Under the pieces are notes generated by a model. It saw only the letters and a program-made list of their open reading frames with translations. It was not told the origin of the DNA and ran no database searches. The translations under genes and the position numbers were made by a program. Shown one piece after another: positions 1,848 to 26,138 of a DNA stretch of 64,000 nucleotides. The DNA lies in assembly GCA_019347715.1 (NCBI GenBank), contig JAHWKU010000011.1, forward strand, positions 1 through 64,000, in the 5' to 3' direction. Every line of letters begins with the position of its first letter. Position 1 is the stretch's first letter. Origin of the DNA: Actinomycetota bacterium. Its GTDB lineage: Bacteria; Actinomycetota; CADDZG01; JAHWKV01.

Positions 1848-3624
1848 GTCGGAGAGCAATCGCAGCCTGCAACAGTGCGGCGTGAGTAAGTGCCTGAGGG
1901 AAATTGCCACGATGTTCCTTCGTGGAAGGATCCATCTGTTCGCCGTATAGAGAAACGTCATTTCCGAGCGAGCACAGCTGATCGAACAGATCGTGAGCCT
2001 CCTCCCGTTGACCCGTATCGGCGAGAGCCCGCACAAGCCAGAACGAGCATGCGAGAAAAGCAGAATCCTTACCCTCGAAGGCGTCGTCGCCGGGATCGTA
2101 GCGATAGAGCAAGGGGCCTCCGGCAGCGAGTTCCTCACGAATGGCTTTGATCGTATTGCCCACCCGTTCTGAATCGTGTTCGAAACCAAGCGTCGGCAGG
2201 ATAAGGTTCGCGGCATCCAATCCATCAGAGCCGTACTTTCTTATGTAGGCCCCCTTGTCGTGGTCAAATCCTCGGCTTCGTACCTCTGAGGCGATGGCAT
2301 CGCGGTTCGCCTTCCATCTCTCAACTCTCGAGGGTCTGGTGCGGTGATTTTGCGAAATCCATATAGCACAGTCGAGGCCATTCCAAGCCATCAGCTTGGA
2401 ATGAACGTAGTGCTCACGGGGGCCACGAACTTCCCAGATGCCGTTGTCGGGCTTCTGCCAGTTGCGGCAAATGTAGTCGGCGAACGCCGAAAACCCACGC
2501 CACTTGGGCTTGTCGAGAGGAAGCCCGGATTTCACGATGAGTCCTGCGGCACGCAGTACCCATCCGTAAACGTCCAGTTGCACCTGGTCGGCTGCGGCGT
2601 TGCCGATCCTCACGGGAAGACTGCTGCGATGCCCTCCGATGTCTTCCAGCTCGATTTCCTGGAGGTTCGGTGTTCCATCGAGGGTGTAGACGACTCTCAT
2701 TTGGGGCCGCGTGGTTCGGCTTGCTATGACCAGCCATCGCAGGAACGACTCGGCTTCGATTTGTTTCTTAGAGTGCTCCACTTCTAGGAAGGCCTCGACT
2801 CCCATGCTGGCATCCCTCGGCCAGGAAAATCGATAGTCCCAGTTCCTAGATCCGCCGATCTCGATGGGTAGAGAAGTTGTGGGAGCTGCAACCGGCGCGC
2901 CCGACGGAGAATAGGTGAGCAAACGAAGAGTGACGAGACTCCGTAATACCGATTCTCGGTGAGGGCCTTCGTAGCCGACGGTTGACGACCAGTTTCTCCA
3001 CCAGCGGTCGGAGTCCTCGAGCCGATTCACCGCCGATAGCGGGTCTATGAAGACAAGGGGCGCCTGATGTGCAGCAAGCATGCAAAAGGAAAATGAAGAT
3101 CCCTCGTCTAACACGAGCGTTAACTCTTGATCAGGTACTAGGTCGATGGATGGGGCGGATGCGATGGAAACCGCGAGGGATCCCCATTCACAAACCAGAG
3201 ATCCCCTGCTATTCCTCGAGCGGACCGGTTTCTTGCCGGGAAGGCCGGCTCGCGGATCGAACTTCACGCGGATTTGATTCCGGCCACGGGTTGACGAAAC
3301 AGTGCGGACGAGAGCGAACTCTGGAAGCAGCGCTGAGCTCACATCCAGCACGAGCCCTTCGGTTAACGTAACCGACCCAGAGCTCGTCTCCCAGGCTGTT
3401 TCGAGGATGGCGGAGCCTTGGCGATAGCGGCGCTCGGTTGACCTAATGCCTTCCGGAGTGATTTGAAATGACCCCCCTGTCTCTTCATCAACCAGACGGG
3501 AGAAGATTGGAGGGGAATCAAATCTCGGTAGACAAAGCCAGTCGATGGAGCCAGATTTGGAGCAAAGGGCGGCGGTGCGTGTATCACCGATCAATGCATA
3601 GTCATCGATGGGGGGTTGAGTCAT
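1834..3624 (-). CDS. Glycoside hydrolase family 15 protein (glucoamylase/trehalase type)
   Basis: 596 residues. An N-terminal beta-sandwich (about 1-220, beginning with the family motif DYALIGDTRTAAL) is followed by an (alpha/alpha)6 barrel. The barrel has the signature WDYRFSWPRDA (262-272), the probable general acid Glu398 in GIWEVRG and general base Glu562 in GEQMDP followed by GNFPQALTH. No signal peptide is seen, so it should act in the cytoplasm on an alpha-glucan, maltodextrin or trehalose; bacterial members include trehalases. The start overlaps the stop of the upstream Sec-AhpD gene (ATGA), so the two are translationally coupled and share the SigR-type promoter near 4206-4231. Confidence 0.9.
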   Translation of the reverse strand: MTQPPIDDYALIGDTRTAALCSKSGSIDWLCLPRFDSPPIFSRLVDEETGGSFQITPEGIRSTERRYRQGSAILETAWETSSGSVTLTEGLVLDVSSALLPEFALVRTVSSTRGRNQIRVKFDPRAGLPGKKPVRSRNSRGSLVCEWGSLAVSIASAPSIDLVPDQELTLVLDEGSSFSFCMLAAHQAPLVFIDPLSAVNRLEDSDRWWRNWSSTVGYEGPHRESVLRSLVTLRLLTYSPSGAPVAAPTTSLPIEIGGSRNWDYRFSWPRDASMGVEAFLEVEHSKKQIEAESFLRWLVIASRTTRPQMRVVYTLDGTPNLQEIELEDIGGHRSSLPVRIGNAAADQVQLDVYGWVLRAAGLIVKSGLPLDKPKWRGFSAFADYICRNWQKPDNGIWEVRGPREHYVHSKLMAWNGLDCAIWISQNHRTRPSRVERWKANRDAIASEVRSRGFDHDKGAYIRKYGSDGLDAANLILPTLGFEHDSERVGNTIKAIREELAAGGPLLYRYDPGDDAFEGKDSAFLACSFWLVRALADTGQREEAHDLFDQLCSLGNDVSLYGEQMDPSTKEHRGNFPQALTHAALLQAAIALRPNED

Positions 3625-4175
3625 TCCAAATTAAGAAGCTGACTCGCGAGACCGCGGAGCGGGTAGGAACGGGCCTCTCGTACTTCCGCAGGCCAGTTTG
3701 CCTCTAGTTCGACTCCAAGGCCATCCGCCACACGGTTCACGTAGTTGAAATAGGACACGACTTGGTTTGCATCGACAATGTCGCGATCAGAGAGGCCGAG
3801 TTTCCGCATCGGGTCAAGATCAGCCTCCCTCATGGCCCATGGCGAAACCGTCAACTTGAGCGCATATCTGCAGAGTGCTTGCATCCGTTGGGGGAGCAGA
3901 TTGAATCTTCCGGAAGCGACCGCCTCCGCCAGCTCCGGCTGACCCGACTCATTCGAGAGGGCCGTCCCGTGCTGAACTACTCAGTAGTGACAATCGTTAG
4001 CTGCGGAAACACAGACGGCGATCGCCTCACGTTCGGACCGGCTCAGCCCTGAATCTCCGAACATGATCGTCCGGTAAAGGGAAACGTGGGCCCGAAGCGC
4101 CTCACGATTAAGGCTGTGGCACTTCAGGATATGCGCGCCGACACCTATGTCGGCTGCTGTTTCTACCCAAGTCAT
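3621..4175 (-). CDS. AhpD-like peroxidase-related selenoprotein (Sec65)
   Basis: Read through one in-frame TGA (3981-3983), this is a complete 184-residue member of the carboxymuconolactone decarboxylase/AhpD-like, peroxidase-related family. The N-terminal helices lead to SAANDCHY-U-VVQHG, where the family normally has CHYC followed by a His; Cys62 and Sec65 would form the redox pair. After the TGA the frame continues through the conserved ALCRYALKLT and DANQVVSYFNYVNRVADGLG blocks to a normal stop. No base is missing or extra, and the ribosome site (AAGGAGG) is excellent. The expected role is reduction of hydroperoxides or other thiol/selenol redox chemistry in the cytoplasm. A SigR-type promoter lies just upstream and GH15 is coupled downstream. 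Alternatives are a nonsense mutation or sequencing error. Confidence 0.85.
3941..3963 (-). promoter_or_regulatory. Possible SECIS stem-loop of the AhpD-like gene
   Basis: Beginning 18 nt after the TGA, the transcript can pair GGCCC with GGGUC and, inside that, CUC with GAG around a GAAU loop. This lies within the usual distance of a bacterial SECIS but lacks the clear GU loop of the other four. A shorter GGG/CCC hairpin at +13 to +22 is an alternative. This is the weakest of the five SECIS calls. Confidence 0.35.
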
Positions 4176-4205
4176 CTTTGCCTCCTTGTCTCATTGATCC
4201 TTAGG

Positions 4206-4231
4206 AACCCGGCATTCACTGCTGTCATTCC
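4206..4231 (-). promoter_or_regulatory. SigR-type promoter for Sec-AhpD and GH15
   Basis: On the minus strand GGAAT (4231-4227), a 16-base spacer and GGGTT (4210-4206). This matches the Streptomyces SigR consensus GGAAT-N18/19-GTT and the other copies in this window. Transcription would start near 4199, about 24 bases before the ATG and just ahead of its ribosome site. Confidence 0.75.
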
Positions 4232-4267
4232 ATCAGTTGAACCCTCTTACCTGTGTAGAGTTCCAGC

Positions 4268-5128
4268 ATGAACGCTCCAGATTTCAAGCCGGACCCCACA
4301 CTATTTCCTTTCGAGTCAAAGTGGTTCGAGAGCAGCGTCGGAAGGATCCATTACATCGACGAAGGCAGTGGTACACCGATCATCCTGTTCCACGGTCAGC
4401 CGACATGGAGCTTTCTCTATAGAAAGATCGTGGAGAGGCTCGCTGACGGGTTCCGATGCATTGCGCCCGATTATCCGGGCTTCGGATTGTCAGTCCGTCC
4501 AGCTGAATACCAATACACGCCAGCGGAACACGCCACAGTGATCGGAGAACTGGTGGACGCTCTGGAACTCGACGGCTTCCTGATCATGGGGCAGGACTGG
4601 GGAGGACCGATCGGCCTATCGATTGCAGGGGATCGATCAGAACAGGTGAAGGGCTTGGTTCTAGGCAACACCTGGTTCTGGCCGGTGTCCCTTAGCGCAC
4701 GGATATTCAGCACGATTATGTCGACAGGGTTCATGCAGCACCAGATCGTCGAGAAGAACTTCTTCGTCGAAAAGATCATGCCCTTCGCCATGAAAAAAAA
4801 GCTGACTGAAGATGAGTTCGATCATTACCGAAAGGCGCAGCCGACCCCTGAGCTTCGAACGGGACTAGGCGAGTTCCCTAGACAACTTACTCGCTCGGAG
4901 TCCTTCCTCGAGAATCTCGAGAAAAGGGTGTTATCACAGCTTGCATCGAAGCCGACCTTGCTGACATGGGGAATGGGGGATATGGCGTTTAGACCTCGCC
5001 AATATATTCCGCAGTTGCGGATGCGGATGCCCCAAGCAGAAGTGGTGGAGCTACGGCGTGCCAAGCATTACATCCAGGAGGACGCACCGGACGAAATCGC
5101 GGGAGCCATTCGAGGAAAGTTCGGGTAG
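4268..5128 (+). CDS. Haloalkane dehalogenase-like alpha/beta hydrolase
   Basis: 286 residues of alpha/beta-hydrolase fold. The oxyanion-loop motif HGQPTWSF (42-49), nucleophile Asp110 in GQDWGG, a cap domain (about 140-205) and the C-terminal catalytic His in AKHYIQED are the pattern of haloalkane dehalogenases, where the nucleophile is Asp followed by a halide-binding Trp. The second halide ligand position is Gln instead of the usual Asn, so the natural substrate is uncertain. Members hydrolyse carbon-halogen bonds to alcohols in the cytoplasm. It diverges from Sec-AhpD over a 92-base intergenic region. Confidence 0.8.
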   Translation: MNAPDFKPDPTLFPFESKWFESSVGRIHYIDEGSGTPIILFHGQPTWSFLYRKIVERLADGFRCIAPDYPGFGLSVRPAEYQYTPAEHATVIGELVDALELDGFLIMGQDWGGPIGLSIAGDRSEQVKGLVLGNTWFWPVSLSARIFSTIMSTGFMQHQIVEKNFFVEKIMPFAMKKKLTEDEFDHYRKAQPTPELRTGLGEFPRQLTRSESFLENLEKRVLSQLASKPTLLTWGMGDMAFRPRQYIPQLRMRMPQAEVVELRRAKHYIQEDAPDEIAGAIRGKFG

Positions 5129-5143
5129 GAGCAGGATGATTTC

Positions 5144-5857
5144 TCAACCGTGATCGTGGTGATGTGAATCACGGACCTCTTCGAGGGCCTTGTCGAGATC
5201 TTCCTTCAACACTACGCCGATGAGAACGCCCTCTGATGTCGTAACCGGAGCAGTGTCGAGGTCGTGTTGCTTCATGAACTCGGTCATCTCCGGGGCAGAA
5301 ACGTTCGGCCGGAAGGTAGATGGTCCGGGCTTCATGATCGACTCAACCGTGGCTTCTGGATCCGAGTCCAGCTGCGATTTGTAGAGGCGTCCCAGCACTA
5401 CTTTTTCGTCGTTGACGACAATGGCTGTGTTCCATCCGTCTGTTTCCACTCGAGCTTTTACCTCTTCCAATCGTTCCTGCAATCCCGCAACAGGCACATC
5501 CTTGCGCGACACTTCTCCGATCGTTGGGACCTTTGCGAGTGTCCCTTCGGTGGGGAGCCCCGACGCTGCCCAGTCGGCAAGCCCGTTCGCGTACTCGTAG
5601 ACGTTCTTGAAACCAAGATCTTCGAGCCGCCACGCGGCTCGTGGGCTCATGTCTCACTGGGTATCCCAACAGTAGGTGATGACCGGGCTCTCGCGGTCGA
5701 GCTCCTTTAGCGCTCTCGAATCGATCTCCTTCAATGGAATGCTGACGGCACCGGGAAGGTGCTGCTCTTCGTACTCCTGCTTCGGTAAGACGTCGACTAT
5801 CTGGGCACCCTCCTGGATCAGCTTCTGTACTTCATCTCGATCGATCACTTTCGGCAT
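5144..5857 (-). CDS. Rhodanese-CBS domain selenoprotein (Sec68)
   Basis: Read through an in-frame TGA (5654-5656), the gene gives 237 residues. A rhodanese-like domain (1 to about 105) contains VITYCWDTQ-U-DMSPRAAW, where relatives have Cys at the U position. It is followed by two CBS motifs (about 118-160 and 170-228) and a His-rich tail HHHDHG. Frame and homology are continuous across the TGA, and the ribosome site GGGAGG precedes the ATG. Rhodaneses move sulfane sulfur, while CBS pairs often bind adenosyl ligands. It is the last gene of the sigR-rsrA-like operon (18-base gap from the Cys-rich gene), which places it in thiol-stress defence. A perfect 8-bp stem-loop follows the TGA. Confidence 0.85.
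5623..5641 (-). promoter_or_regulatory. SECIS-like stem-loop of the rhodanese-CBS gene
   Basis: Starting 13 nt after the TGA, the transcript reads CGAGCCGC-GUG-GCGGCUCG, a perfect 8-bp stem with a three-base GU-containing loop. Spacing and loop agree with bacterial SECIS elements. Confidence 0.7.
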
Positions 5858-5875
5858 CTGACCTCCCTAATCTCC

Positions 5876-6085
5876 TCAGTAGTCGTCAAACGGCGCGGGA
5901 GAAACTTTCTGCATAGGCCGTGGTCCATGCTCCGGGCAGCACTCCTTGTCGAAGCCGGTTTCAATAAGGTCGCGTGGTAAGAGCCAAGAACAACCCTCGC
6001 AGTAACAGTCGCCGAACCTGATCCATCGGGCGTCGGGGATGTCTGCTCCCCGTCTTACAGCCTGTTCGCAACATTCACATCTCAT
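5876..6085 (-). CDS. Small cysteine-rich protein, probable metal binder
   Basis: 69 residues with eight Cys: CECC near the start, CYCEGC in the middle and ECCPEHG near the end. The spacing suggests a zinc-ribbon or iron-sulfur fold. I do not recognise a named family. It sits between the anti-sigma gene (15-base gap) and Sec-rhodanese (18-base gap) on the same strand, so it should be co-expressed under thiol stress, perhaps as a thiol or zinc buffer. Confidence 0.65.
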   Translation of the reverse strand: MRCECCEQAVRRGADIPDARWIRFGDCYCEGCSWLLPRDLIETGFDKECCPEHGPRPMQKVSPAPFDDY

Positions 6086-6100
6086 CGGAACCGTCCCGTC

Positions 6101-6391
6101 TCAACCGAGTTCGATTTCGTCTCCATCCTCCCGTTCTCCGAGACTCTGTGCGAATTGGGAGAGCCGCGAGATCGCCTGCTGGTCCAGGGGGCCGAGTTGC
6201 TGAAGCGAATTCTTAAGACGTTTGTAGGTCTCGAACTCAAGCCCGCATCGTCTGCACATCTCCAGGTGAGCAGCCACTCTTCGAGCCGTCACATCGTCAC
6301 GCATTTCGCCGTCGATGTAGGACTGAAGGTGCTTCATGACCTCAGCGCAGGTCGCGGTGTCACTCGTAGTTTTGGCTCGCTTGAACCTCAT
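6101..6391 (-). CDS. rsrA: RsrA-type zinc-binding redox anti-sigma factor
   Basis: 96 residues with the ZAS pattern: Cys15, His42, Cys46 and Cys49 (HLEMCRRC). These correspond to the zinc and redox-switch residues of Streptomyces RsrA. Known members release their sigma factor when disulfide stress oxidises the cysteines and expels zinc. The start codon overlaps the stop of the sigma gene (ATGA), the usual arrangement. The RsrA assignment rests on the residue pattern, the partner gene and the promoter motif around it. Confidence 0.8.
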   Translation of the reverse strand: MRFKRAKTTSDTATCAEVMKHLQSYIDGEMRDDVTARRVAAHLEMCRRCGLEFETYKRLKNSLQQLGPLDQQAISRLSQFAQSLGEREDGDEIELG

Positions 6392-6939
6392 ACCTGTCCC
6401 CCCTCGACAAAGAGTTCTTCTGATTTCAGCCCTTCTCGAATCCTGGTTCTTCCCCGGTGCAGCCGGCTCATCACCGTACCGACCGGCACTCCGAGACGCG
6501 CCGCCGCTTCCGCGTAGCTCATGCCACTTATGTCAACGAGGGCCACCACCTCTCGAAACTTCCCGGGCAGTTCTTCGAAAGCAGCCGCCACCGCCCCATC
6601 GAAAGCCTGATCGACCACCTGGAACTCGGGGCTATCCCGATGGTCTGACACGCTCTCGGGATTGCCGGATTCATCGACGTCTGAAACAGGAAGCGGCACT
6701 TTCTTGCGGACCTGATTGGCAAGGGCGTTGCGAAGAATGGTGAGAAGCCAAGCTCTCGGATGGCGTCCGTCGAATCGTTCGATGGCACGAAAGGCTCTCA
6801 GCAGAGTCTCCTGAACGAGATCCTCGGCGTTCTCGGGCTTTCCGGTCATGGCCAGCGCCACGCGATAAAGGAGCTCCAGCTCGGGAACCACGTATTTATC
6901 GAAGCTTGCCTTGCGGCTCCGTTTACTCAACTTGGTCAT
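6388..6939 (-). CDS. sigR: SigR/SigH-like ECF sigma factor (thiol stress)
   Basis: 183 residues with region 2 (DLVQETLLRAFRAIERF and the AWLLTILRN helix) and region 4 (ELPGKFREVVALVDISGMSYAEAAARLGVPVGTVMSRLHRGR). Group identity with SigR/SigH is inferred from the coupled RsrA-like anti-sigma gene and from a SigR-type motif at its own promoter, implying autoregulation. The ATG at 6939 is chosen over a GTG at 6963 because it lies 9 bases after the -10 element, which fits a leaderless transcript; the GTG would lie inside the promoter spacer. Confidence 0.85.
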   Translation of the reverse strand: MTKLSKRSRKASFDKYVVPELELLYRVALAMTGKPENAEDLVQETLLRAFRAIERFDGRHPRAWLLTILRNALANQVRKKVPLPVSDVDESGNPESVSDHRDSPEFQVVDQAFDGAVAAAFEELPGKFREVVALVDISGMSYAEAAARLGVPVGTVMSRLHRGRTRIREGLKSEELFVEGGQV

Positions 6940-6948
6940 CGCGCTGGA

Positions 6949-6974
6949 AACCCCATCGAGCACGAGGATATTCC
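6949..6974 (-). promoter_or_regulatory. SigR-type promoter of the sigR-rsrA operon (autoregulatory)
   Basis: GGAAT (6974-6970), 16 bases, GGGTT (6953-6949). The sigma factor start codon follows 9 bases later, so the mRNA is probably leaderless. Confidence 0.75.
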
Positions 6975-7006
6975 GATTCGAGTCGTTAGAAGATTGTTTG
7001 GTGTCG

Positions 7007-7033
7007 GGAATGAATGAACCCAGGCCGCGGGTT
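7007..7033 (+). promoter_or_regulatory. SigR-type promoter of the lone zinc-finger gene
   Basis: GGAAT (7007-7011), 17 bases, GGGTT (7029-7033). It is divergent from the sigR promoter. The ATG at 7043 follows 9 bases after the -10, again leaderless. Confidence 0.65.
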
Positions 7034-7042
7034 TTCGTTTAC

Positions 7043-7297
7043 ATGACCTTCACTCACACTCAGGCAAGCCGATTTCTGGACGCCCTGGTTGACCAAGAGC
7101 TGGACGAATTGACCAGAGAAGCGTTTTCCTCCCACGTGGACGAGTGCCAGGATTGTCATCGCGCCTTTCTCCTCACCTGTCGAATCAAGAATTCGCTTGC
7201 CAAGCTGGCTGCGCTGACGGAGCCGGGGCTGGAAGCTTGGATTGGGACAGAAAGAAGAAGATCGTGGAAGAGGCGCGTGCCGTTTCGTCACGGCTGA
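7043..7297 (+). CDS. Second zinc-finger anti-sigma-like protein
   Basis: 84 residues with an N-terminal zinc-finger of anti-sigma type: VDQELD, then His31-x3-Cys35-x2-Cys38 (HVDECQDC), then a helical part and a basic tail (RRRSWKRRVPFRHG). It lacks the upstream Cys seen in the RsrA-like partner. It is divergent from sigR and has its own SigR-type promoter, suggesting a feedback regulator of the same or another sigma factor. The ATG at 7043 fits the promoter; an in-frame ATG at 7010 would overlap the -35 element. Confidence 0.7.
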   Translation: MTFTHTQASRFLDALVDQELDELTREAFSSHVDECQDCHRAFLLTCRIKNSLAKLAALTEPGLEAWIGTERRRSWKRRVPFRHG

Positions 7298-7301
7298 TTG
7301 A

Positions 7302-8495
7302 CTAACGGATGATCTTGGTATCGAGCAGGAATGCCGCCCATGCGAACCAGAAAGTATCCACGTGCTCGATCGGTTGAAGCTTCTCGCCGCGCTTCGGTCC
7401 AGCCACCGCATTTCCCAAAATGTCCCACTTGGTGCCGGTCAGGGAGTCGACGAATAATCCTCCTTGCGACATGAACTTCGAAGCTCTTCGGTCTACCGAA
7501 GCCTTGAAGACCCCCGTCTCACCTACGTCCTTGCCCTCGGGAATCTCGGAGGTGTCGAGGGCGGAGGCCGTCCCCGGGCGGGCAAACACTACGATCGATT
7601 GACCTGCCAGCTCTAAGTGCATCACTTTCTTCTTAATCAGAGTGTCGAGCACAACGGCGGCACTCTGTTCCTCCACTCGAATGCCGACCACCCGAGTCAT
7701 CGCCGGCATCCTTCCGTCGGTTTCACCCTCGAAGAGAAACGGCCTCTTCTCACGGTCGTCATATCCAACGTACGGGTTACGGCCGTAGTCCCGATCGAAC
7801 CCCGTGTTCTTGCTGAGAACCCACCCGTCCGGATTCGCGTTTCTCCAACTAGCCCACGACACGGTGCTGAGCGGATGTATTTCAAGGGTAGTTCCCGTCA
7901 ATCTGCCGGCGATGGCCTTGCCTTCGAACTGGCTCCAAAGCGATTCGGTCTGCCGGTCGTACATCACGAGAGCGGAGTTGTATAGCTTCCCCGAGGTTCC
8001 GAAGTCGACGATCCTCTCGCCGACGCGGCGATCGAAAGCGGTAGCCGAATTGCACAGAGGGCAGTAGGTCACCGTTACCGGCACCTTTCCCACGGTGTCG
8101 TTCACTATCTCGTGCCAGGTAAGGATCTGAGTAGGGTATGCCCTGTTTTCGCCCCCGAGTTCCAACGCCACGACGGGCTCTCTGTCCTTTAGCCACTCGA
8201 CTTCAGAGGTCCGGTTGAACTTTGGGCGATCGATCGGAGGAATCCCGTCGGGGGGAGGACCGCCCGGGATGATCTTCGATGGATCGACAAGCGGCTCTGG
8301 GAGGTCTGGACCGGAAGGGTCCTGGAGGGCGGAAGGGCCGTTCTCTTTCGGGCTCGAAGCTGCTTGAGGAAGTTCGACATCTCGCGCCTCCGGCGACTTC
8401 CCAGGGGTGGACACTCTGGAACACGAGGCGGCGAACAGAACGAAAAGAATCAGAGAAGCCGTGAGACGCGGCTGCCTTCCAATTTGCAGAGTCAC
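7302..8495 (-). CDS. DUF3179 domain lipoprotein
   Basis: 397 residues. The N-terminal signal peptide ends in a lipobox (LFAASC), followed by a Pro/Ser-rich linker (about 28-95) and a DUF3179 domain with the conserved blocks YPTQILTWHEIVNDTVG, VTYCPLCNSATAFDR and DFGTSGKLYNSALVMYD. The role of this exported family is not defined, but the CPLC pair suits the redox setting. The GTG start overlaps the upstream SRPBCC stop (GTGA), so the two are coupled and share a SigR-type promoter. Confidence 0.85.
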   Translation of the reverse strand: MTLQIGRQPRLTASLILFVLFAASCSRVSTPGKSPEARDVELPQAASSPKENGPSALQDPSGPDLPEPLVDPSKIIPGGPPPDGIPPIDRPKFNRTSEVEWLKDREPVVALELGGENRAYPTQILTWHEIVNDTVGKVPVTVTYCPLCNSATAFDRRVGERIVDFGTSGKLYNSALVMYDRQTESLWSQFEGKAIAGRLTGTTLEIHPLSTVSWASWRNANPDGWVLSKNTGFDRDYGRNPYVGYDDREKRPFLFEGETDGRMPAMTRVVGIRVEEQSAAVVLDTLIKKKVMHLELAGQSIVVFARPGTASALDTSEIPEGKDVGETGVFKASVDRRASKFMSQGGLFVDSLTGTKWDILGNAVAGPKRGEKLQPIEHVDTFWFAWAAFLLDTKIIR

Positions 8496-8830
8496 CTGTT
8501 AGGAGACCGAGCTTTTGGCGGGTGGATCTTGCTGCGGCTCGCCCTCTGGTACCTGAGCTCAGAGTTATCGCCTCGGGGAACGACTTCGATCTCTTCCTCA
8601 ACAAACGGCAGCGGACCCTCGAGCCAGCGGTACTTGATCATGGGGGGGTCTAGCACGACGAGCTCTACGGTTCGCACTTTCTTGCCGGCTGCTTCGAGCT
8701 CGAACTCGACTGTCTTTTCCCCATCGCGAGATTCCAGTGTCTTCCCGGCCGAGGAGACAACCTCATAAGGCAGGGGTGCCGGAGCCCTGACCGCCAACTG
8801 CTGACTCTTGAGCTCTCTAGGCCGACGCAT
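8492..8830 (-). CDS. Short SRPBCC (START-like) protein
   Basis: 112 residues that match the first two thirds of a polyketide-cyclase/START-like fold (VRAPAPLPYEVVSSAGKT, then LDPPMIKYRWLEGPLPFVEE). The usual last strand and long C-terminal helix are missing; after LRYQ the sequence becomes a basic, Pro-rich end. This could be an old frameshift near 8540 or a genuinely short form. It is coupled to DUF3179 by a GTGA overlap. The start at ATG 8830 has a GGGAGG ribosome site that can be sequestered in a hairpin. Confidence 0.6.
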   Translation of the reverse strand: MRRPRELKSQQLAVRAPAPLPYEVVSSAGKTLESRDGEKTVEFELEAAGKKVRTVELVVLDPPMIKYRWLEGPLPFVEEEIEVVPRGDNSELRYQRASRSKIHPPKARSPNR

Positions 8831-8831
8831 C

Positions 8832-8845
8832 GGAGGTACGCCTCC
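8832..8845 (-). promoter_or_regulatory. Hairpin covering the ribosome site of the SRPBCC gene
   Basis: GGAGG-CGTA-CCTCC lies immediately before the ATG. The 5-bp stem would hide the Shine-Dalgarno sequence, so it may dampen translation of this operon. Confidence 0.4.
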
Positions 8846-8871
8846 CTTCCCTGGGCAGGTTTCGTTAAGGG

Positions 8872-8897
8872 AACCCGAGTCCTCCTCCCAAAATTCC
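8872..8897 (-). promoter_or_regulatory. SigR-type promoter of the SRPBCC-DUF3179 operon
   Basis: GGAAT (8897-8893), 16 bases, GGGTT (8876-8872), giving a leader of roughly 35 bases. It is divergent from the next promoter. Confidence 0.75.
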
Positions 8898-8918
8898 CCA
8901 CAGTTAATGGGCAAGCCG

Positions 8919-8944
8919 GGAATGAAGAGCCGGTCTGGCGGGTT
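8919..8944 (+). promoter_or_regulatory. SigR-type promoter of the Tat lipoprotein gene
   Basis: GGAAT (8919-8923), 16 bases, GGGTT (8940-8944). Transcription would start about 50 bases before the GTG at 9001. Confidence 0.7.
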
Positions 8945-9000
8945 TGGGGGACAACTTCGTTTCGAGCCAAGTGGCGCCGTGCGCCAGGAGGGAGGCCAAG

Positions 9001-9282
9001 GTGGAAGACATCCAATCCCCGCGGGTGAACCGAAGGCAGTTTCTTGGTAAGGCGGCCCGCGCCTCGCTCCTGACCTTATCGCTTCCGGCCCTGCTGGAAG
9101 CCTGCACTACGGATCGTGGGGACCTGCGAACCCGGACCACTTTTACCCCTGACAGTTTCAAGGAGAAAACTAAGGCCATACAAGCACAGGCCGAAAAGCT
9201 AGTTGGCGACGTTCTCGATTTTCAGCTCACCTCCGACGACTGGGAGGGAGTATTCGGGTTCGCCAAGTTCTTCATGAAATGA
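9001..9282 (+). CDS. Tat-exported lipoprotein, probably truncated
   Basis: 93 residues. A twin-arginine signal (NRRQFLGKAA, Arg11-Arg12), hydrophobic core and lipobox (LLEAC, Cys35) precede a short acidic domain ending DWEGVFGFAKFFMK. The GTG at 9001 has a strong ribosome site (GGAGGGAGG). The last residues run antisense over a DoxX fragment, and the domain stops abruptly, so the 3' part of the gene seems to have been lost in a deletion. Function unknown. Confidence 0.65.
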   Translation: MEDIQSPRVNRRQFLGKAARASLLTLSLPALLEACTTDRGDLRTRTTFTPDSFKEKTKAIQAQAEKLVGDVLDFQLTSDDWEGVFGFAKFFMK

Positions 9283-9410
9283 CTCATCCGATTCTGCTTC
9301 TCGCCGGGATCTTCAATCTTCCAGAAATCGTGCATGTAGAGAGCTGTTGGAATGAGAAACACGACTAGGAACAGCGCGCCCAGATCTCCCCAAACCCCGA
9401 GAAGCACCAT
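9222..9410 (-). pseudogene. Remnant of a DoxX-family membrane protein gene
   Basis: The minus strand encodes a recognisable DoxX segment: LLGVWGDLGALFLVVFLIPTA, then HDFWKIEDPGEKQNRMSHFMKNLA. The N-terminal helices (replaced upstream by the end of the 9430-9888 gene) and the last helix (replaced after KNLA by sequence antisense to the Tat lipoprotein) are both missing. Two gene remnants are therefore joined tail to tail near 9265-9280. Confidence 0.65.
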
Positions 9411-9429
9411 AAGCCCTGACTCCCTTCGC

Positions 9430-9888
9430 TCATTTCATCATTTGGTAGGCGATCGTGGTCGCGGTGGCGTAGACCGCGTGATGAAAGGCATCGATAGCAA
9501 GGGCTTCTTTTCCCCATTCCTTTACGGGAGGCGTAACCCCCAAGGCAGGCTGCATCACGAGCGCGTTACCCCACACCGCGGCAAAGTGGGTGGCCGTACC
9601 CGTCAGGCCGTTTAAGCCCAAAGCGCCGAGCATGGCCCTGGGGATTCCCCAGGTGGTTCCGTAGGCGAAATGGACGAGATTCGAGAAGCGAACCTTCTCC
9701 TCTTTGCCGCGTGGCTGAACCCCTAGGACCTTCCCGGCGGCGTCACCCGGAACCGTGCTGGGCTTTCGTCCTCTGAGCTTCATCTCGAGAGTGCTCGAAA
9801 TCGTCATCGCTAGGGTTCCCACCAGACCGGCGATGATTCCCCTGCCCAGTTGGGTAGCGAGACGATCGAACTTCCTACTGTGCTCCAT
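9430..9888 (-). CDS. Membrane protein of unknown function
   Basis: 152 residues with about four helices (15-33, 77-95, 98-117, 132-149) and a basic cytoplasmic loop (KLRGRKPSTVPGDAAGKVLG). It resembles YagU/DUF1440-like small membrane proteins in layout, but I do not assign the family. It follows tlpA (stop at 9940) on the same strand with a 51-base gap, so it probably belongs to that SigR-controlled transcript. Confidence 0.6.
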   Translation of the reverse strand: MEHSRKFDRLATQLGRGIIAGLVGTLAMTISSTLEMKLRGRKPSTVPGDAAGKVLGVQPRGKEEKVRFSNLVHFAYGTTWGIPRAMLGALGLNGLTGTATHFAAVWGNALVMQPALGVTPPVKEWGKEALAIDAFHHAVYATATTIAYQMMK

Positions 9889-9939
9889 GTAACTGCCTTT
9901 CTGATCTAGCGAGATACATCCATTTAAGAATCTGCCCGG

Positions 9940-10506
9940 TCAAACGTCGTACAAATCGGCGAGTCTTTTGCGGAGCGCCGGCTCGGACAAGGCCCCCGAG
10001 GCCACATCGAGCACCTCTCCTTTCTCGTTATAGAAAGCAGTAAGAGGCATGCCGAACCCTCCAAGAGCTTGGTGGAGGTCGTTTTCCGCAGCACCTATAT
10101 CCTTAGCCAGTGGCCAGTGATCGATCTCGAACCGACGCGCCATCTCGAGGCCCCGACCTCCATCCTGGGTATTTACACCCACAAAGATGATTCGCCCTTC
10201 TAGTTCCTTGGAGATCGCGGAGAAATGGGGGAGTTCGAACTCACAAGGGCCGCACCAGGACGCGAAGAAGTTCAAGACCACCGGTTCTCCCCGAAAATCC
10301 TGCAGCCGGACCCTTCCCTCGGAGCCGAGTGCCGGCAGGTCCCAGTTTTTGGTATCCGAGGAGCCGTCTTGCCCACCGCTATCCGATGCGATGAACAACA
10401 CTCCGAGCAAGGCCACCACGGCGAGTAGGATCCCTGCGTTGACCCAGCGGGATCGCTCGCCTCTAACCTTCCTTTCAATCAGGGCGCGCTCCATCCGATC
10501 ACTCAC
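9940..10506 (-). CDS. TlpA/ResA-like membrane-anchored thioredoxin
   Basis: 188 residues: a short basic N-terminus, one membrane anchor (about 20-38), then a TlpA-like thioredoxin domain with active site FFASWCGPCEFELPH and the cis-Pro region FGMPLTAF. It should face outward and reduce disulfides of exported or heme-maturation proteins. The open frame extends to 10863, but that part is antisense to the Sec-TlpA gene. The GTG at 10506 is chosen because it lies 8 bases after the -10 element (leaderless); an ATG at 10494 is the alternative. Confidence 0.85.
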   Translation of the reverse strand: MSDRMERALIERKVRGERSRWVNAGILLAVVALLGVLFIASDSGGQDGSSDTKNWDLPALGSEGRVRLQDFRGEPVVLNFFASWCGPCEFELPHFSAISKELEGRIIFVGVNTQDGGRGLEMARRFEIDHWPLAKDIGAAENDLHQALGGFGMPLTAFYNEKGEVLDVASGALSEPALRKRLADLYDV

Positions 10507-10514
10507 GTATCGGA

Positions 10515-10540
10515 AACCCCGACCGAAGCACGCTAATTCC
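10515..10540 (-). promoter_or_regulatory. SigR-type promoter of tlpA
   Basis: GGAAT (10540-10536), 16 bases, GGGTT (10519-10515). The GTG start codon follows after 8 bases. Confidence 0.75.
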
Positions 10541-10571
10541 GCGGGCGATGCCCTGGCGGGCGATGAAAGTT

Positions 10572-10597
10572 GGAATACCCCCGGATTAAAGCGGGTT
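10572..10597 (+). promoter_or_regulatory. SigR-type promoter of the Sec-TlpA gene
   Basis: GGAAT (10572-10576), 16 bases, GGGTT (10593-10597). The ATG at 10607 follows after 9 bases, implying a leaderless message. It is divergent from the tlpA promoter. Confidence 0.75.
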
Positions 10598-10606
10598 CCG
10601 TGAACA

Positions 10607-11605
10607 ATGCTGATCCACTTGGGTGAGGGCGACACGGCAGTAGAGGCTCCAGCAGAGGACGGGCTTTGGGTCCCCCTCGACATCGTTGCTGCGGCCTTGG
10701 AGCTAGAGGTCCGAGACCTCGAAGAGGAATCGATCGGATTCTGCCCGAGCGATGACATCTGTGTCCCGGTTCCGCAGTCCGCACTGACGACCCAGAAGGG
10801 CGTCACGGCGATCCGGCTCCAAGATCTGGCCGCCTCCCTTGGGCTGGCGATCGCATCAGACACGGATCACGCCGTGGTACTGACCGGCGCCGTTAGAACC
10901 GTCTCTTTCGCACAGCTCGGCGCACCGCTCGTAGCCCAGCTTCCCAACGTTCACACCGGTGAAGTCGAGCCGCTCGGGCATCCCGGCAAAAAGACAGCGA
11001 TCTTCGCTTGGGCCTCTTGGTGAACCTGCCGGCATCAGCTGCCCGGGTGGCAGCAACTTCATGAGGAGTTCGGCGACAGCATCGGATTTACGAACGTAGC
11101 CGTAGATTTCCAAGGAGCGGAAGTCGCCCGGCCCTGGGTCGAAGCAGCCGAGATAACGTTTCGCTCCCTGGTGGACCGGCAGGGAGACCTGCTCAAGTTG
11201 ATGGGTCTGACTTTTGTGCCCATAGCGGCCTTTCTCGATGCTAAAGGAGACCTGGTCGAACCCCCAACTCCCATCGACATTCGCCAGCCCCAGATGCGGG
11301 AGGCCATCGTCGCCTGGGCCGATGGAGAGCAGGATAGTCCCGGTTTCGTTCATGACGCGCGCCGAGCGGACTCCGCGACTGCCTATGTAGAGGCCAGGGC
11401 CTTCGTACGGCTGGCCAATCTCGCGATCGCCGATGGACGAAAGAGCGACTCGGCCTCCCACCTAAAAGAAGCGTTGAAAAGAGACCCCGAGAATTGGCTC
11501 ATACGAAAGCAGATCTGGGCCATAGAGCACCCTGCGCGCTTCTATCAGGGCGACATCGATCTCGAGTGGCAGAAGGAGCAAATCGACCAAGGAGGACGAG
11601 GTTGA
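10607..11605 (+). CDS. TlpA-like redoxin selenoprotein (Sec139)
   Basis: Reading through the TGA at 11021-11023 gives 332 residues. An N-terminal domain (1 to about 115) with CPSDDICVP precedes a redoxin domain whose active site is FAWASW-U-TCRHQLPGW, and a C-terminal helical tail (about 255-325, including DPENWLIRKQIWAIEHP). Relatives have Cys where U is; Sec139 and Cys141 would be the redox pair. The frame is unbroken and homology continues without gap. A paralog with the same architecture and the same TGA is at 25086-26138. No signal peptide is evident. A GU-loop stem follows the TGA and a SigR-type promoter precedes the gene. Confidence 0.88.
11038..11054 (+). promoter_or_regulatory. SECIS-like stem-loop of the Sec-TlpA gene
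   Basis: Fifteen nt after the TGA: GCUGCC-CGGGU-GGCAGC, a 6-bp stem with a CGGGU loop. The paralog at 25763-25779 has the same loop and the same spacing with a different but still paired outer base pair (G-C against C-G). Confidence 0.75.
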
Positions 11606-11663
11606 GGACTCCGGTCACCAAACGACACAGTGAAACCTGCCTAATCCGTACTCGACTACCCTT

Positions 11664-12191
11664 CTAGCGAACGGGAATCCCGCCCGCCGCGATCTCGGGC
11701 TCAAGAGCTCTCGAGCGAACTCCTGCCAACCCTAACCACGCCCCGAGAGTTGCTCCATACAAAACATGCTCGATCGAGAAAGTCGGCCACCCGACCATCG
11801 TCGGCATGTCGCCTTGCCCGATGATGGGCAGGGCAATGAAGCTCATGAATGCCATGACCGCGAGCCCGTAGATCGCTCCCAGAAGGATCAAGCTCGCTCC
11901 GCCGATACGGATTCGACTAACCAGCAACGCAAACAAGACCCCCCATCCGATGGCTGTAACCATATGGATCATCATGCCGAGCGCGGCGGGTCCGGCGGAG
12001 AAGTAAAAGGTGCCGCCATCCATCGAAGACTTCATCTCCTCTGGCCCGATGAGGAAGGCCGCGATGTGATACATGGGGGTGAAGAACCCGGTCCCTAGAT
12101 AGGTTGCTCCCGCGATCATGGCGAACATGGCCATGACGATCCCGCCGACAAGCCCCCCCACGATTCCGCGGGTAATAGTTGATCGTTCCAT
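11664..12191 (-). CDS. Four-helix membrane protein, SigR regulon member
   Basis: 175 residues with four to five hydrophobic helices (about 8-30, 65-88, 95-117, 120-140, 148-165), Gly- and Met-rich, and a polar C-terminus. No catalytic motif is visible. The ribosome site (AAAGGAGG) before the ATG is excellent and a SigR-type promoter lies about 30 bases upstream, back-to-back with the thioredoxin promoter. Function unknown. Confidence 0.65.
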   Translation of the reverse strand: MERSTITRGIVGGLVGGIVMAMFAMIAGATYLGTGFFTPMYHIAAFLIGPEEMKSSMDGGTFYFSAGPAALGMMIHMVTAIGWGVLFALLVSRIRIGGASLILLGAIYGLAVMAFMSFIALPIIGQGDMPTMVGWPTFSIEHVLYGATLGAWLGLAGVRSRALEPEIAAGGIPVR

Positions 12192-12220
12192 AACGACCTC
12201 CTTTGCCGTATTGGCCTGGA

Positions 12221-12246
12221 AACCCGACTTCGCCTCCAGCTATTCC
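12221..12246 (-). promoter_or_regulatory. SigR-type promoter of the 11664-12191 gene
   Basis: GGAAT (12246-12242), 16 bases, GGGTT (12225-12221). Its -35 element is half of a 20-bp palindrome. Confidence 0.75.
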
Positions 12247-12257
12247 GCGGAATAGCT
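12238..12257. repeat. 20-bp perfect palindrome formed by two back-to-back -35 elements
   Basis: AGCTATTCCGCGGAATAGCT is perfectly self-complementary. It contains the GGAAT of both divergent SigR-type promoters, separated by CG, so one sigma binding locus serves the membrane protein and thioredoxin. Confidence 0.8.
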
Positions 12258-12275
12258 ATAGGGGCTAAATGGGTT
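12249..12275 (+). promoter_or_regulatory. SigR-type promoter of thioredoxin
   Basis: GGAAT (12249-12253), 17 bases, GGGTT (12271-12275). The leader to the ATG at 12334 would be about 50 bases. Confidence 0.7.
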
Positions 12276-12306
12276 TCCTTGTGAAAAGCGATCACGAAGG
12301 GAGGAA

Positions 12307-12325
12307 GGGCACCTTGCTGGTGCCC
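12307..12325 (+). promoter_or_regulatory. Leader hairpin upstream of thioredoxin
   Basis: GGGCACC-TTGCT-GGTGCCC, a perfect 7-bp stem placed between a purine-rich AGGGAGGAAGGG tract and the ATG. Folding would bring that tract nearer the start codon, or shield it. Confidence 0.4.
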
Positions 12326-12333
12326 GAAAGAAA

Positions 12334-12678
12334 ATGGGAACTACGCGAAAGGTCACTGACGGTGACTTCGAAAATCAGGTGCTGAGCTCGGAGAGACCAG
12401 TACTGGTGGACTTCTATGCCGACTGGTGCGGACCGTGCCACATGGTAGCTCCAGAGGTGGAGGCGATTGCCGATGAGATGAATGACCGTCTCAAGGTTGT
12501 GAAGCTGGATATAGATGCCAACCCCAAAACGGCTGAGAGATTCGGCGTAATGTCGATCCCGACGCTCGTGCTCTTCAGCGGTGGAGGAAATGAGGAGTTG
12601 AGGATCATAGGAGCACGCCACCGAGACGACCTGCGGAAGGAAATTGAACCAAAGCTATCCGCAGGCGCGACCGGGTGA
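12334..12678 (+). CDS. trxA: Thioredoxin
   Basis: 114 residues, full length for thioredoxin, with active site ADWCGPC at about 30-36 and the cis-Pro loop MSIPTLVLF. A cytoplasmic disulfide reductant. The SigR-type promoter upstream matches the known control of thioredoxin genes by SigR in Streptomyces. No thioredoxin reductase gene is in the window. Confidence 0.93.
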   Translation: MGTTRKVTDGDFENQVLSSERPVLVDFYADWCGPCHMVAPEVEAIADEMNDRLKVVKLDIDANPKTAERFGVMSIPTLVLFSGGGNEELRIIGARHRDDLRKEIEPKLSAGATG

Positions 12679-12708
12679 AAGATTGATTAACTCTGAAGGA
12701 GTAAGCGA

Positions 12709-12966
12709 GTGGGGATATTGAGCCGATCGAAAACCTGCGTTCATTACAGCGGCGAGAGCGCGGCCCCGCGCGCGAAGGCTTGCGAAGGGTGTGGGAGCAC
12801 CTTCAATTTGAGGGTCTGCACCGAATGCGGCCATGTCGGGTGTTGCGAGTCGCAGCAGGCTCACAATACGCAGCACTCCCGACAGGCTGGCCATCCTGTC
12901 ATTAAGTCCTTGCCACTAGGTAAGGGCTCCTTCACGTGGTGCTACGAGTGCCGAGCATACGTCTAG
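12709..12966 (+). CDS. UBP-type zinc finger protein
   Basis: 85 residues with the ZnF-UBP pattern: CEGCGSTFNLRVCTECGHVGCC, then HNTQHSRQAGHPV, then FTWCYECRAYV. Bacterial stand-alone copies exist but their role is unclear. The GTG at 12709 has a good ribosome site (GAAGGAG). It lies 30 bases after thioredoxin and is probably on the same transcript. Confidence 0.85.
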   Translation: MGILSRSKTCVHYSGESAAPRAKACEGCGSTFNLRVCTECGHVGCCESQQAHNTQHSRQAGHPVIKSLPLGKGSFTWCYECRAYV

Positions 12967-13716
12967 TCAAACTAAACGGAATCCAGGCCGCAGGCCCTGG
13001 ATCGTCGCCAGGTAGAAGAAGTAAGCAGCGATCCCAAGAAGAAAGAACGATGTGAGGCGTTGGGAGATACGAAGAGCGCGCGGGCTAACTTTCCATCCAC
13101 TCATGACGAACCAGACCAGACCCACGAGGAAGCCGGCATGCCCGATGCCGAAGGCGAGCATGACAAGGGCGCTGTAGATGGTGTTTCCGAATGTTGCCGC
13201 TGATGCCGCCACACCGATCACCACCCCGGCGCATGCAGGACAGTTCACCAATCCTGCCGGGATTCCGGCAAGGAAAGCGCCAAGAGCGGTGAGGTTTCTC
13301 CTTGTCGGCATCGCGCAGGCAGCACAGAAGGACGACGGCGTCAGCAGCAGGAACAGTGCGAATCCAGATATGAGAATCCCGAGTGTCAGATAGCCAATTC
13401 CCGAATAGGGCCTGAGAATCGATTCGGTGAGGTTATCTATTCGACTGGCGACGACTCCCACAGCGGTATACACCACTACCATTCCGGCTCCGAAAGCCGC
13501 GGCCACCTTGACTGCGCCGCCCCGCGCGGCCAGTGCCCCGGCACTTCCGAACCCGATAAAAGTGCCGAGTATCGGAAGCGCGGCGGGGTTCGCGCTCAAA
13601 AGCGCGCCCATGATTACCGCCACCGGGATCCCGAGCCACCAAGTGCTCTCGATCAGGCTAAAAGGATCAATGTCGCACCTCCGCCGAGTTCGTCCCTTAG
13701 GAGAACCCGAAAACAT
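12967..13716 (-). CDS. CcdA/DsbD-like membrane protein with cysteine pairs
   Basis: About 249 residues with six to seven membrane helices. Two Cys pairs (FCAACAMP and VNCPACAG) and a Pro/Gly-rich layout suggest a CcdA/DsbD-type carrier of electrons or metal across the membrane. The start is uncertain. ATG 13716 has an AAAGGAA site, but a SigR-type promoter (13704-13729) overlaps it; if that is used, translation would begin lower, for example at an ATT (13671) behind GGAGGTG or at a GTG further in. It is divergent from the HMA gene. Confidence 0.7.
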   Translation of the reverse strand: MFSGSPKGRTRRRCDIDPFSLIESTWWLGIPVAVIMGALLSANPAALPILGTFIGFGSAGALAARGGAVKVAAAFGAGMVVVYTAVGVVASRIDNLTESILRPYSGIGYLTLGILISGFALFLLLTPSSFCAACAMPTRRNLTALGAFLAGIPAGLVNCPACAGVVIGVAASAATFGNTIYSALVMLAFGIGHAGFLVGLVWFVMSGWKVSPRALRISQRLTSFFLLGIAAYFFYLATIQGLRPGFRLV

Positions 13717-13729
13717 CGAATTCAATTCC
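13704..13729 (-). promoter_or_regulatory. SigR-type promoter motif of the CcdA/DsbD-like gene
   Basis: GGAAT (13729-13725), 16 bases, GGGTT (13708-13704). It coincides with the longest plausible start codon, so either the gene starts further down or this copy is not used. Confidence 0.5.
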
Positions 13730-13752
13730 TTTGAGACTCCAAGGTTTAATCT
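13721..13752 (+). promoter_or_regulatory. MerR-type promoter/operator of the HMA-CcdA operon
   Basis: TTCAAT (13721-13726), 20-base spacer, TAATCT (13747-13752). The spacer holds the near-palindrome CCTTTGAGACTCCAAGG (13728-13744). An over-long spacer with a central dyad is the hallmark of MerR-activated promoters, and the CTCCAAGGT half is shared with the promoter at 14905-14936. Confidence 0.4.
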
Positions 13753-13758
13753 ATCTGC

Positions 13759-13977
13759 ATGAATTTGAAGACAGTCGAGCTTTCGGCGGACATGAATTGC
13801 CGGGCTTGTCAGTACCGGATTACCGGAGCCCTGAAACAACAGGATGGGGTCAAGTCCAATAAGGCGGACTTCCGGACCCAGAAAGTAACCATTGAGTTCG
13901 ATCCGTCACAGATAGACGAGACCGAACTCCGCCAAGTTATCGACAACGCCCTTAACCACGGCCTCTCGCTCGAGTAG
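13759..13977 (+). CDS. Heavy-metal-associated (HMA) domain protein
   Basis: 72 residues forming one HMA ferredoxin-like domain with metal site MNCRACQYRI at 12-21. It is a MerP/CopZ-like soluble carrier, probably for copper given the P1B ATPase nearby. Six bases separate it from the Sec-CcdA gene, indicating one operon. Confidence 0.88.
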   Translation: MNLKTVELSADMNCRACQYRITGALKQQDGVKSNKADFRTQKVTIEFDPSQIDETELRQVIDNALNHGLSLE

Positions 13978-25107: not shown

Positions 25108-26138
25108 TAATTCTCGGAGCCGATACTTTTCACGTCGTCTGTCCAATTTCCATCGTACACAGGCGTCGGCCCCTGTTTGGGATCAATGAAACTCCAGGCT
25201 TGGCGTTTGTAGGTCCAGTTCGATGGGTGTAAGCGATGGGCTTCCCGGAAGTGGAATACCGCGTCCTCGGTAAACCCGGCGCGATGAAGGTGTTGCCCCA
25301 ACTCGAATTGTGCTGCGGCGGTCGCAATCTCTTGTGACCTCGGATGCGATCTAGCGATGACTTCATCAGGCGTTAGAGCAAAGCGCGAGGCCGAGCCTTT
25401 GGCAACCCAGTCGCGGATCGCGCTCACATAGGCATCACCTTCTATTCGCAGTCCCCTCGCGAGTTCGATCAGTTCTACGCGCTCGGGTGGCGTATCTTCG
25501 GGGATCGGTACATTGCTGTAGTCGATGGTGCGAGTCCACGCAGGTTCGGCAGGCCGAACGATCATGCCTTCCTCATCGATCCAAACCCCGTTTGGGACGT
25601 TAACGATGCCGAACAGCTCGTCGACTACATGTGCCTCATCGATGACCGACGGGTGCTGCGCGTCGGCGTCGAGAACGTATTGGCGACAGGCCTCCGGTCC
25701 GCCTGTATCGAGTGCGACCGTTACTACCTCGAGTCCTTTTGGCTTGAGCTCTGTTCTCAATGCCTGCCACCCGGGCAGGTCGTTACGGCATCCTCACCAG
25801 GAGGCCCATGCCACCAGTAGAATTTTCTGCCCAAGCAGGAATCGAAGATCGAACGTGCCGCCTCGCATGTCCGGCAGGACGAGGGGCGGAGCCACCGCTG
25901 AAGAGAGGGCCCGGCCCCCGGCTTCGGGCCCGAGGCTGTAGATCCGGTGCTGTTCGTTGTAGACGAGGGGCATGCGGAGCTGCTCTGCCAGCAAGCTTGC
26001 ATCGACTAAGGAGTCTGAACAAGTCTCCGGCGAAATCGGGACGCAGACATCTCCTCTGCACGCTTGCAGCTCTTCGATTTTCCAGCCAGTGCGCTGCTCG
26101 ATCTCTTCGGCACTAACTCGCAGCTTTTCGAGGATCAT
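25086..26138 (-). CDS. TlpA-like redoxin selenoprotein, paralog (Sec115)
   Basis: Reading through the TGA at 25794-25796 gives 350 residues with the same plan as the 10607-11605 protein. An N-terminal domain with VSAEEIEQRTGWKIEEL and CRGDVCVP precedes a redoxin domain with active site LVAWASW-U-GCRNDLPGW, and a helical tail (HRLHPSNWTYKRQAW). Sec115 and Cys117 form the putative redox pair. It lies 36 bases after the M3 peptidase gene on the same strand, so it is probably expressed with the peptidase and the FAD-Rieske oxidoreductase. I see no SigR-type motif before it. Confidence 0.87.
25763..25779 (-). promoter_or_regulatory. SECIS-like stem-loop of the second Sec-redoxin
   Basis: Fifteen nt after the TGA: CCUGCC-CGGGU-GGCAGG, a 6-bp stem and CGGGU loop at the same position as in the paralog, with a compensatory change in the outer pair. 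Confidence 0.75.

Follow-up and report, generated by a model that had tools for sequence, protein, structure and literature searches.

Two reading frames in the window, by which we mean the whole 64,000-nucleotide stretch analysed, raise the question of whether the TGA inside each is read as selenocysteine (Sec, U), whether the two products belong to one family and what sets them apart. P0001 (10607–11605, + strand), a UTC-type three-part redoxin, is open over 332 amino acids when TGA is read as U; its sole in-frame TGA is codon 139 (U139, 11021–11023, +), a true stop closes the frame and C141 is encoded at 11027–11029 (+). P0002 (25086–26138, − strand), of UGC type, has 350 amino acids and its sole in-frame TGA at codon 115 (U115, 25794–25796, −). 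A sequence-only reading had described both as sharing three parts, marked by C(x4-5)CVP, ASWUxCRxxLPGW and NW(x4)QxW, and the two frames do carry all three motifs: C46-x5-C52-VP, ASWUTCRHQLPGW and NW-LIRK-QIW (residues 296–304) in P0001, and C27-x4-C32-VP, ASWUGCRNDLPGW and NW-TYKR-QAW in P0002. The active site of each is U-x-C (UTC and UGC, respectively) instead of CxxC, as had also been proposed. BLASTP aligns the two proteins with 28% identity over 309 columns (E 2e-23). The Pfam models AhpC-TSA and Redoxin match the middle part, in P0001 above their cut-offs, and the tail gives weak TPR signals.

The TGA in both genes almost certainly encodes Sec, judging from the sequence comparisons and the gene content of the host. 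The genome (2.4 Mb, 90% complete) contains a tRNA-Sec (84 bits over the Rfam cut-off), SelB (335 bits) and SelA (510 bits). Almost all of the approximately 70 homologues have TGA at the equivalent codon and the remainder have Cys; L067, L138, L139 and L141 encode Cys at the position of U139. A SECIS-like hairpin, CUGCC-CGGGU-GGCAG, lies 15 nt after the TGA of P0001 (11039–11053, +) and is also present in P0002 (25764–25778, −). When the 54 nt from the Sec or Cys codon were compared in 76 distinct family sequences (73 with TGA, three with Cys), all five pairs of CUGCC-NG(G/U)NU-GGCAG, beginning 15 nt after the TGA, were kept in 73/73 Sec members and in one of the three distinct Cys-encoding sequences. 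Synonymous recoding with each gene's own codon usage retained the stem in 20.4 ± 3.7 sequences, with a maximum of 32 (2000 runs). The Leu codon within the stem is CTG or TTG in 72/73 members, and these two codons together account for 37% of the Leu codons in the remainder of those genes. Five of the six TTG cases carry the compensatory CAA, and they occur in KSB1, Poribacteria, Dehalococcoidia and Acidobacteriota; in L025, with GTC/GAC, two pairs are swapped and both amino acids altered. Related sequences are not independent in these statistics, and the compensatory changes recur across separate phyla. The loop, N-G-(G/U)-N-U, has the G that is characteristic of the small apical loop of bacterial SECIS elements (PMC1088965). 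The stem overlaps the LPGWQ codons, so part of the conservation of this motif may stem from the RNA; most of these amino acids are also kept in the Cys members. Rfam has no match within the window. Folds of the 50 nt following each TGA are no more stable than those of shuffled sequences (z about −0.2), and for P0002 the structure of minimum energy is not the five-pair stem; for this reason we used the family-wide pairing rather than single-sequence folds. Under table 11 TGA is a stop, and both genes would then be pseudogenes or assembly errors producing only fragments; a TGA shared at one codon by almost all homologues and otherwise replaced by Cys, the SECIS pairing, and the tRNA-Sec, SelA and SelB of the genome make this scarcely credible.

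P0001 was modelled with AlphaFold2 (mean pLDDT 85.9). The redoxin domain (residues 99–243; 10901–11335, +) resembles ResA, StoA and DsbE in Foldseek and VIA searches, with VIA superpositions on ResA and DsbE at Z 16–17 and r.m.s.d. 2.2–2.6 over approximately 135 residues. P0001 and P0002 share with ResA, StoA, TlpA and DsbE the redoxin fold, the WASW-C start of the active site and the conserved VP loop. They differ in that those proteins, most of them extracytoplasmic, have CxxC and neither an amine-oxidase-like N-terminal domain nor a TPR tail. In the HMMER alignment to StoA, U-T-C falls on the CxxC and leaves a gap of one residue; the U-x-C site is one residue shorter than the CxxC of ResA, TlpA and StoA. 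W138, U/C139, C141, L145, W148, Q149, D190, P205 and G214 are invariant over 43 proteins, as are N296, Q302, W304, P309 and W321 of the helical, TPR-like C-terminal tail (NWLIRKQIWAIEHPARFY...DLEWQKEQ; 11375–11593, +), whose end has the conserved segment NWxxxKQIW...EHP..FY...WQ.

The N-terminal domain (residues about 17–94; 10655–10888, +) contains C46 (10742–10744, +) and C52 (10760–10762, +), which are the only invariant columns in 37 such domains. The whole P0001 model returned redoxin-domain matches only in Foldseek. Modelled alone, the N-terminal domain has a pLDDT of 76 and repeated strand-helix-strand-strand units, and in Foldseek it has no match better than E 0.5. Its best VIA match is residues 6–81 of E. 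coli copper amine oxidase (Z 6.0, r.m.s.d. 2.9, 60 residues), an enzyme that fills the top nine rows (Z 5.7–6.0, r.m.s.d. 2.9–3.3, approximately 60 residues), all below Z 8. The corresponding Pfam model, PF07833, scores 18.5 bits in homologue L097 and 15.9 in L089, below its gathering cut-off of 24.2, and has no match in P0001 or P0002. The modelled domain resembles copper-amine-oxidase domain 1; with Z under 8 and Foldseek silent, the relation is a likeness and not proof. The Chloroflexota members lack this domain, as do several members from Acidobacteriota and the short actinobacterial proteins; it and its C46/C52 pair are thus dispensable for the core chemistry.

Whether the terminal parts of the two proteins are related at all was the point on which the idea of one family could have failed. 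Compared directly, the N-terminal domains of P0001 and P0002 match weakly (hhalign probability 3%); intermediates connect them, the P0001 domain matching the Poribacteria group profile at 95% and the group 2 profile at 93%, and the P0002 domain matching group 2 at 97%. The tail profiles give 99.7% for P0001 against the Poribacteria group and 96% for P0002; the relation between the two proteins is stronger for the tails than for the N-terminal domains. Profile comparisons therefore link the terminal parts of both proteins into a single homologous family, although for the N-terminal domain the intermediates are needed.

A scan of genome contigs with P0001 alone recovered zero relatives, and a profile scan with an alignment of P0001 and two short relatives identified 63 further loci whose products have this redoxin and tail; in nearly all of them a TGA occupies the corresponding codon. 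That 63 loci share these parts means that the TGA frames of P0001 and P0002 are not due to chance. The loci are found in Poribacteria, Phycisphaerae, KSB1, Armatimonadota, Acidobacteriota, Verrucomicrobiota, Chloroflexota and Actinomycetota, and searches across the phylum Actinomycetota turned up further UxC groups. The residue between U and C is G, A, T, S, V, I or M across the family. Plasmid searches gave partial redoxin-like or tail-like matches only. Among the short actinobacterial members, L138, L139 and L141 have Cys (CTC) replacing Sec. L138 and L139 lie directly after a conserved 257-residue frame; L141 (CAMCVN010000023.1) is near-identical to them, and its title, a Bifidobacterium breve MAG, is probably a wrong organism label.

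The UxC site had been presented as distinctive. It does differ from CxxC, but it is not new. UGC-containing Prx-like selenoproteins have been catalogued since the Global Ocean Sampling study of 2008 (PMC2398784), they appear as UGC-containing Prx-like or TlpA disulfide reductase family selenoproteins in later work (PMC9312934, PMC13188914), and earlier work on the Sargasso Sea set had already noted a single UXC case (PMC1088965). By description, the only basis of this comparison, the catalogued proteins likewise have Sec in a UGC motif of an AhpC/TSA-type domain; the accessible portions of these catalogues describe no three-part layout, N-terminal domain or other UxC variants. P0002 belongs to the NCBIfam family NF041054 (WAxxUGC_long, ‘ResA-like WAxxUGC motif-containing protein’), which describes it with 514 bits over positions 1–353 against a curated cut-off of 300. 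P0001, at 136 bits, falls outside this family, and none of the wider UxC members tested passes an NCBIfam equivalog cut-off. P0001 is like NF041054 in its N-terminal domain, redoxin domain and U-x-C site, and differs in its UTC (own string WAxxUTC), in its tail sequence (KQIW..EHP..FY..WQ) and in its branch of the tree. The selenoprotein family is well supported as real, with P0001 a new variant and P0002 a known protein. Since the U-x-C motif and P0002 were already known, what is added is the breadth of the family, its layout and the group of P0001. Scattered UGC-type entries are joined into one clade with a three-part layout, in at least eight phyla and almost always with Sec, marked by a variable middle residue, an invariant Cys pair outside the redoxin domain and a signature tail.

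In a tree of UxC proteins and CxxC redoxins, every UxC protein falls into a single clade separate from the CxxC redoxins (100/98), and P0001 and P0002 belong to different subclades of it. P0001 groups with L089 of Phycisphaerae and L092 of KSB1 (96/91); P0002 lies within an actinobacterial UxC clade (100/100), in its WAxxUGC_long subgroup (99/95). P0001 sits on a long branch (1.29), which makes its precise position less certain than the fact that it is separate from P0002. The two genes had been called paralogues. They are homologous, as that term requires, but a recent duplication within this genome followed by divergence of roles is very unlikely: the same architecture and a distance of 14 kb on one contig would suit it, whereas the sister relation is rejected (AU p 1.8e-5), the different subclades are well supported and the identity is only 28%. 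Nearly as improbable is a hybrid origin of P0001, in which a short actinobacterial UTC redoxin and tail acquired an N-terminal domain from the WAxxUGC_long lineage. The tail of P0001 does match those of the short UTC proteins L022 and L068, both of which lack the domain; against this, Phycisphaerae, KSB1, Poribacteria and others have three-part proteins that carry this tail, the N-terminal domain of P0001 is closer to the Poribacteria group profile than to that of group 1, and a tree forcing P0001 together with the short actinobacterial UTC clade is rejected (p 1.9e-4). Tree tests thus reject both origins. Among 24 genomes of the class, P0001-like and P0002-like genes occur in this genome only, and a short UTC gene that scores comparably is present in one other, G022; such a patchy spread fits horizontal transfer.

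The most interesting point of P0001 is its SigR-type setting. GGAAT-N18-GTT lies just before its ATG (10572–10597, +), the GTT ending 9 nt upstream, which makes a leaderless or near-leaderless transcript likely. In the window this pattern occurs 10 times against 1.74 expected, a count reached in 0/100 shuffles, and none lies near P0002 within the scanned window; a SigR-type promoter at the first copy only had been predicted. Ten of the 11 window matches to GGAAT-N15-18-GGTT fall between 4.2 and 13.8 kb. Genome-wide, GGAAT-N15-17-CGGGTT has 14 matches against 0–1 for the reversed control, and seven of the 14 lie at 4–14 kb of the P0001 contig. Of the seven on other contigs, some lie before unrelated genes (frames that by eye resemble Nudix hydrolase and undecaprenyl-diphosphate synthase) or within frames, and the evidence for a regulon consequently rests on the island.

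SigR promoters have a spacing of 18 bases. Their elements are reported as GGAAT and GTTG (PMC5005934). The island encodes an ECF sigma factor that matches the SigE and SigH/SigR models at scores under their cut-offs (6388–6939, −; promoter 6949–6974, −) and a zinc-finger, RsrA-like (zf-HC2) anti-sigma factor (6101–6391, −). Their scores, 110 bits against 251.55 for the SigR (SigH_actino) equivalog and 30.6 against 62.5 for RsrA, are below the cut-offs. GGAAT-N18-GTT together with a SigR/RsrA-like pair nearby places the promoter in the SigR class as far as letters can tell. The other promoter-bearing genes of the island encode a TlpA-like CxxC redoxin with what looks like a membrane anchor at its N terminus (9940–10494, −), divergent from P0001 (GGAAT promoter 10515–10540, −); a thioredoxin (12334–12678, +; GGAAT promoter 12249–12275, +); a DsbD_TM/CcdA-like membrane protein, whose start codon is unsettled (12967–13690, −; GGAAT promoter 13704–13729, −); and, as the third selenoprotein of the window, an AhpD-like peroxidase-related protein (3621–4175, −; TIGR01926, 147.6 bits, cut-off 81.8) with CHYU (CxxU; TGA 3981–3983) and GGAAT-N18-GTT at 4206–4231 (−). 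A DUF3179 protein (7302–8495, −; 360 bits) also lies in the island and has Cys only (CPLC); DUF3179 also figures in listings of selenoprotein families. Just after the thioredoxin gene is a small Cys/His-rich frame (12710–12967, +) that looks by eye like a UBP-type zinc finger. The island (4200–13800) probably forms a thiol-redox regulon that includes its regulator. Like the Streptomyces SigR–RsrA regulon it has an ECF sigma and zinc-finger anti-sigma pair, GGAAT and GTT elements and thioredoxin among the likely targets; it differs from that regulon in a sigma and anti-sigma that fall short of the equivalog cut-offs, a −10 region of GGGTT and the presence of selenoproteins among its likely targets. 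The promoter of P0001 hints at selenium use tied to thiol-stress regulation. The neighbours of the two copies differ, as had been noted: P0001 is in the redox island, and P0002 follows an M3 oligopeptidase gene (26175–28256, −) after 36 nt, probably on the same transcript. Judged from regulation, the divided roles suggested for P0001 and P0002 are plausible.

What P0001 might do can be approached from this setting. Its most probable role is that of a Sec-dependent disulfide reductase or isomerase that works in the cytosol as part of a thiol-stress regulon, an activity that we infer. The combined account that we favour, with moderate confidence, has a broad UxC family, P0001 in this function and P0002 as a separately regulated form from a different lineage. 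An in-frame TGA at 10601–10603 excludes an ordinary longer start and leaves no room for an upstream signal peptide; with none apparent in the N-terminal sequence, P0001 would reside in the cytosol. On thiol stress the RsrA-like anti-sigma would free the ECF factor and P0001 would be made. Loss of one residue from the active-site loop of a ResA/StoA-type fold would put Sec and Cys one residue apart; the selenolate may attack a disulfide (or a peroxide), a short, strained selenenylsulfide could then form with C141, and electrons would be restored by thioredoxin, whose gene is 0.7 kb away, or via the C46/C52 pair. A CGC dithiol that mimics PDI has a potential near −167 mV (PMC4316792), from which the U-x-C site should be more oxidising than that of thioredoxin unless Sec offsets this. 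A natural Sec and Cys one residue apart makes such short selenenylsulfide chemistry testable.

Two other functional readings are possible but rather unlikely. The proteins may be peroxiredoxin-like Sec peroxidases, with peroxide reduction by Sec and the nearby Cys as resolving residue. The database label ‘UGC-containing Prx-like’, the AhpC-TSA and Redoxin matches in Pfam, the placing of UGC proteins under pfam00578 in review tables (PMC9312934) and the AhpD-like, peroxidase-related selenoprotein of the same promoter island point that way. The best structural matches are nevertheless the disulfide reductases ResA, StoA and DsbE, with peroxiredoxins next (Z 14–16); Sec occupies the first-Cys position of CxxC and is followed by Cys, as in thiol-disulfide enzymes; and the site is ASWUTC or ASWUGC, without the TxxU or TxxC motif of peroxiredoxins. 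Equally tentative is the proposal that these are unnamed multi-phylum selenoenzymes in which the CxnCVP dithiol of the N-terminal domain and U-x-C form a relay, recruited with the AhpD-like selenoprotein to a SigR-type regulon. If so, selenium would serve as an inducible disulfide-stress defence; the members that lack the N-terminal domain weaken the relay idea. The disulfide reductase or isomerase reading of P0001 concerns a cytosolic protein, and the cellular compartment is not fixed across the family, given that the Poribacterial and Phycisphaerae homologues look, by eye, exported.

In Poribacteria the start of the UxC selenoprotein gene overlaps the end of a small monohaem cytochrome c gene by 4 nt (ATGA). 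The cytochrome is apparently membrane-anchored and has CSRCH or CSKCH. The arrangement, which suggests a coupled exported pair, is not present in L108, L118 and L149, and is seen in L090, L091, L093–L107, L109–L117, L119, L120, L122–L126, L129, L146, L148 and L150.
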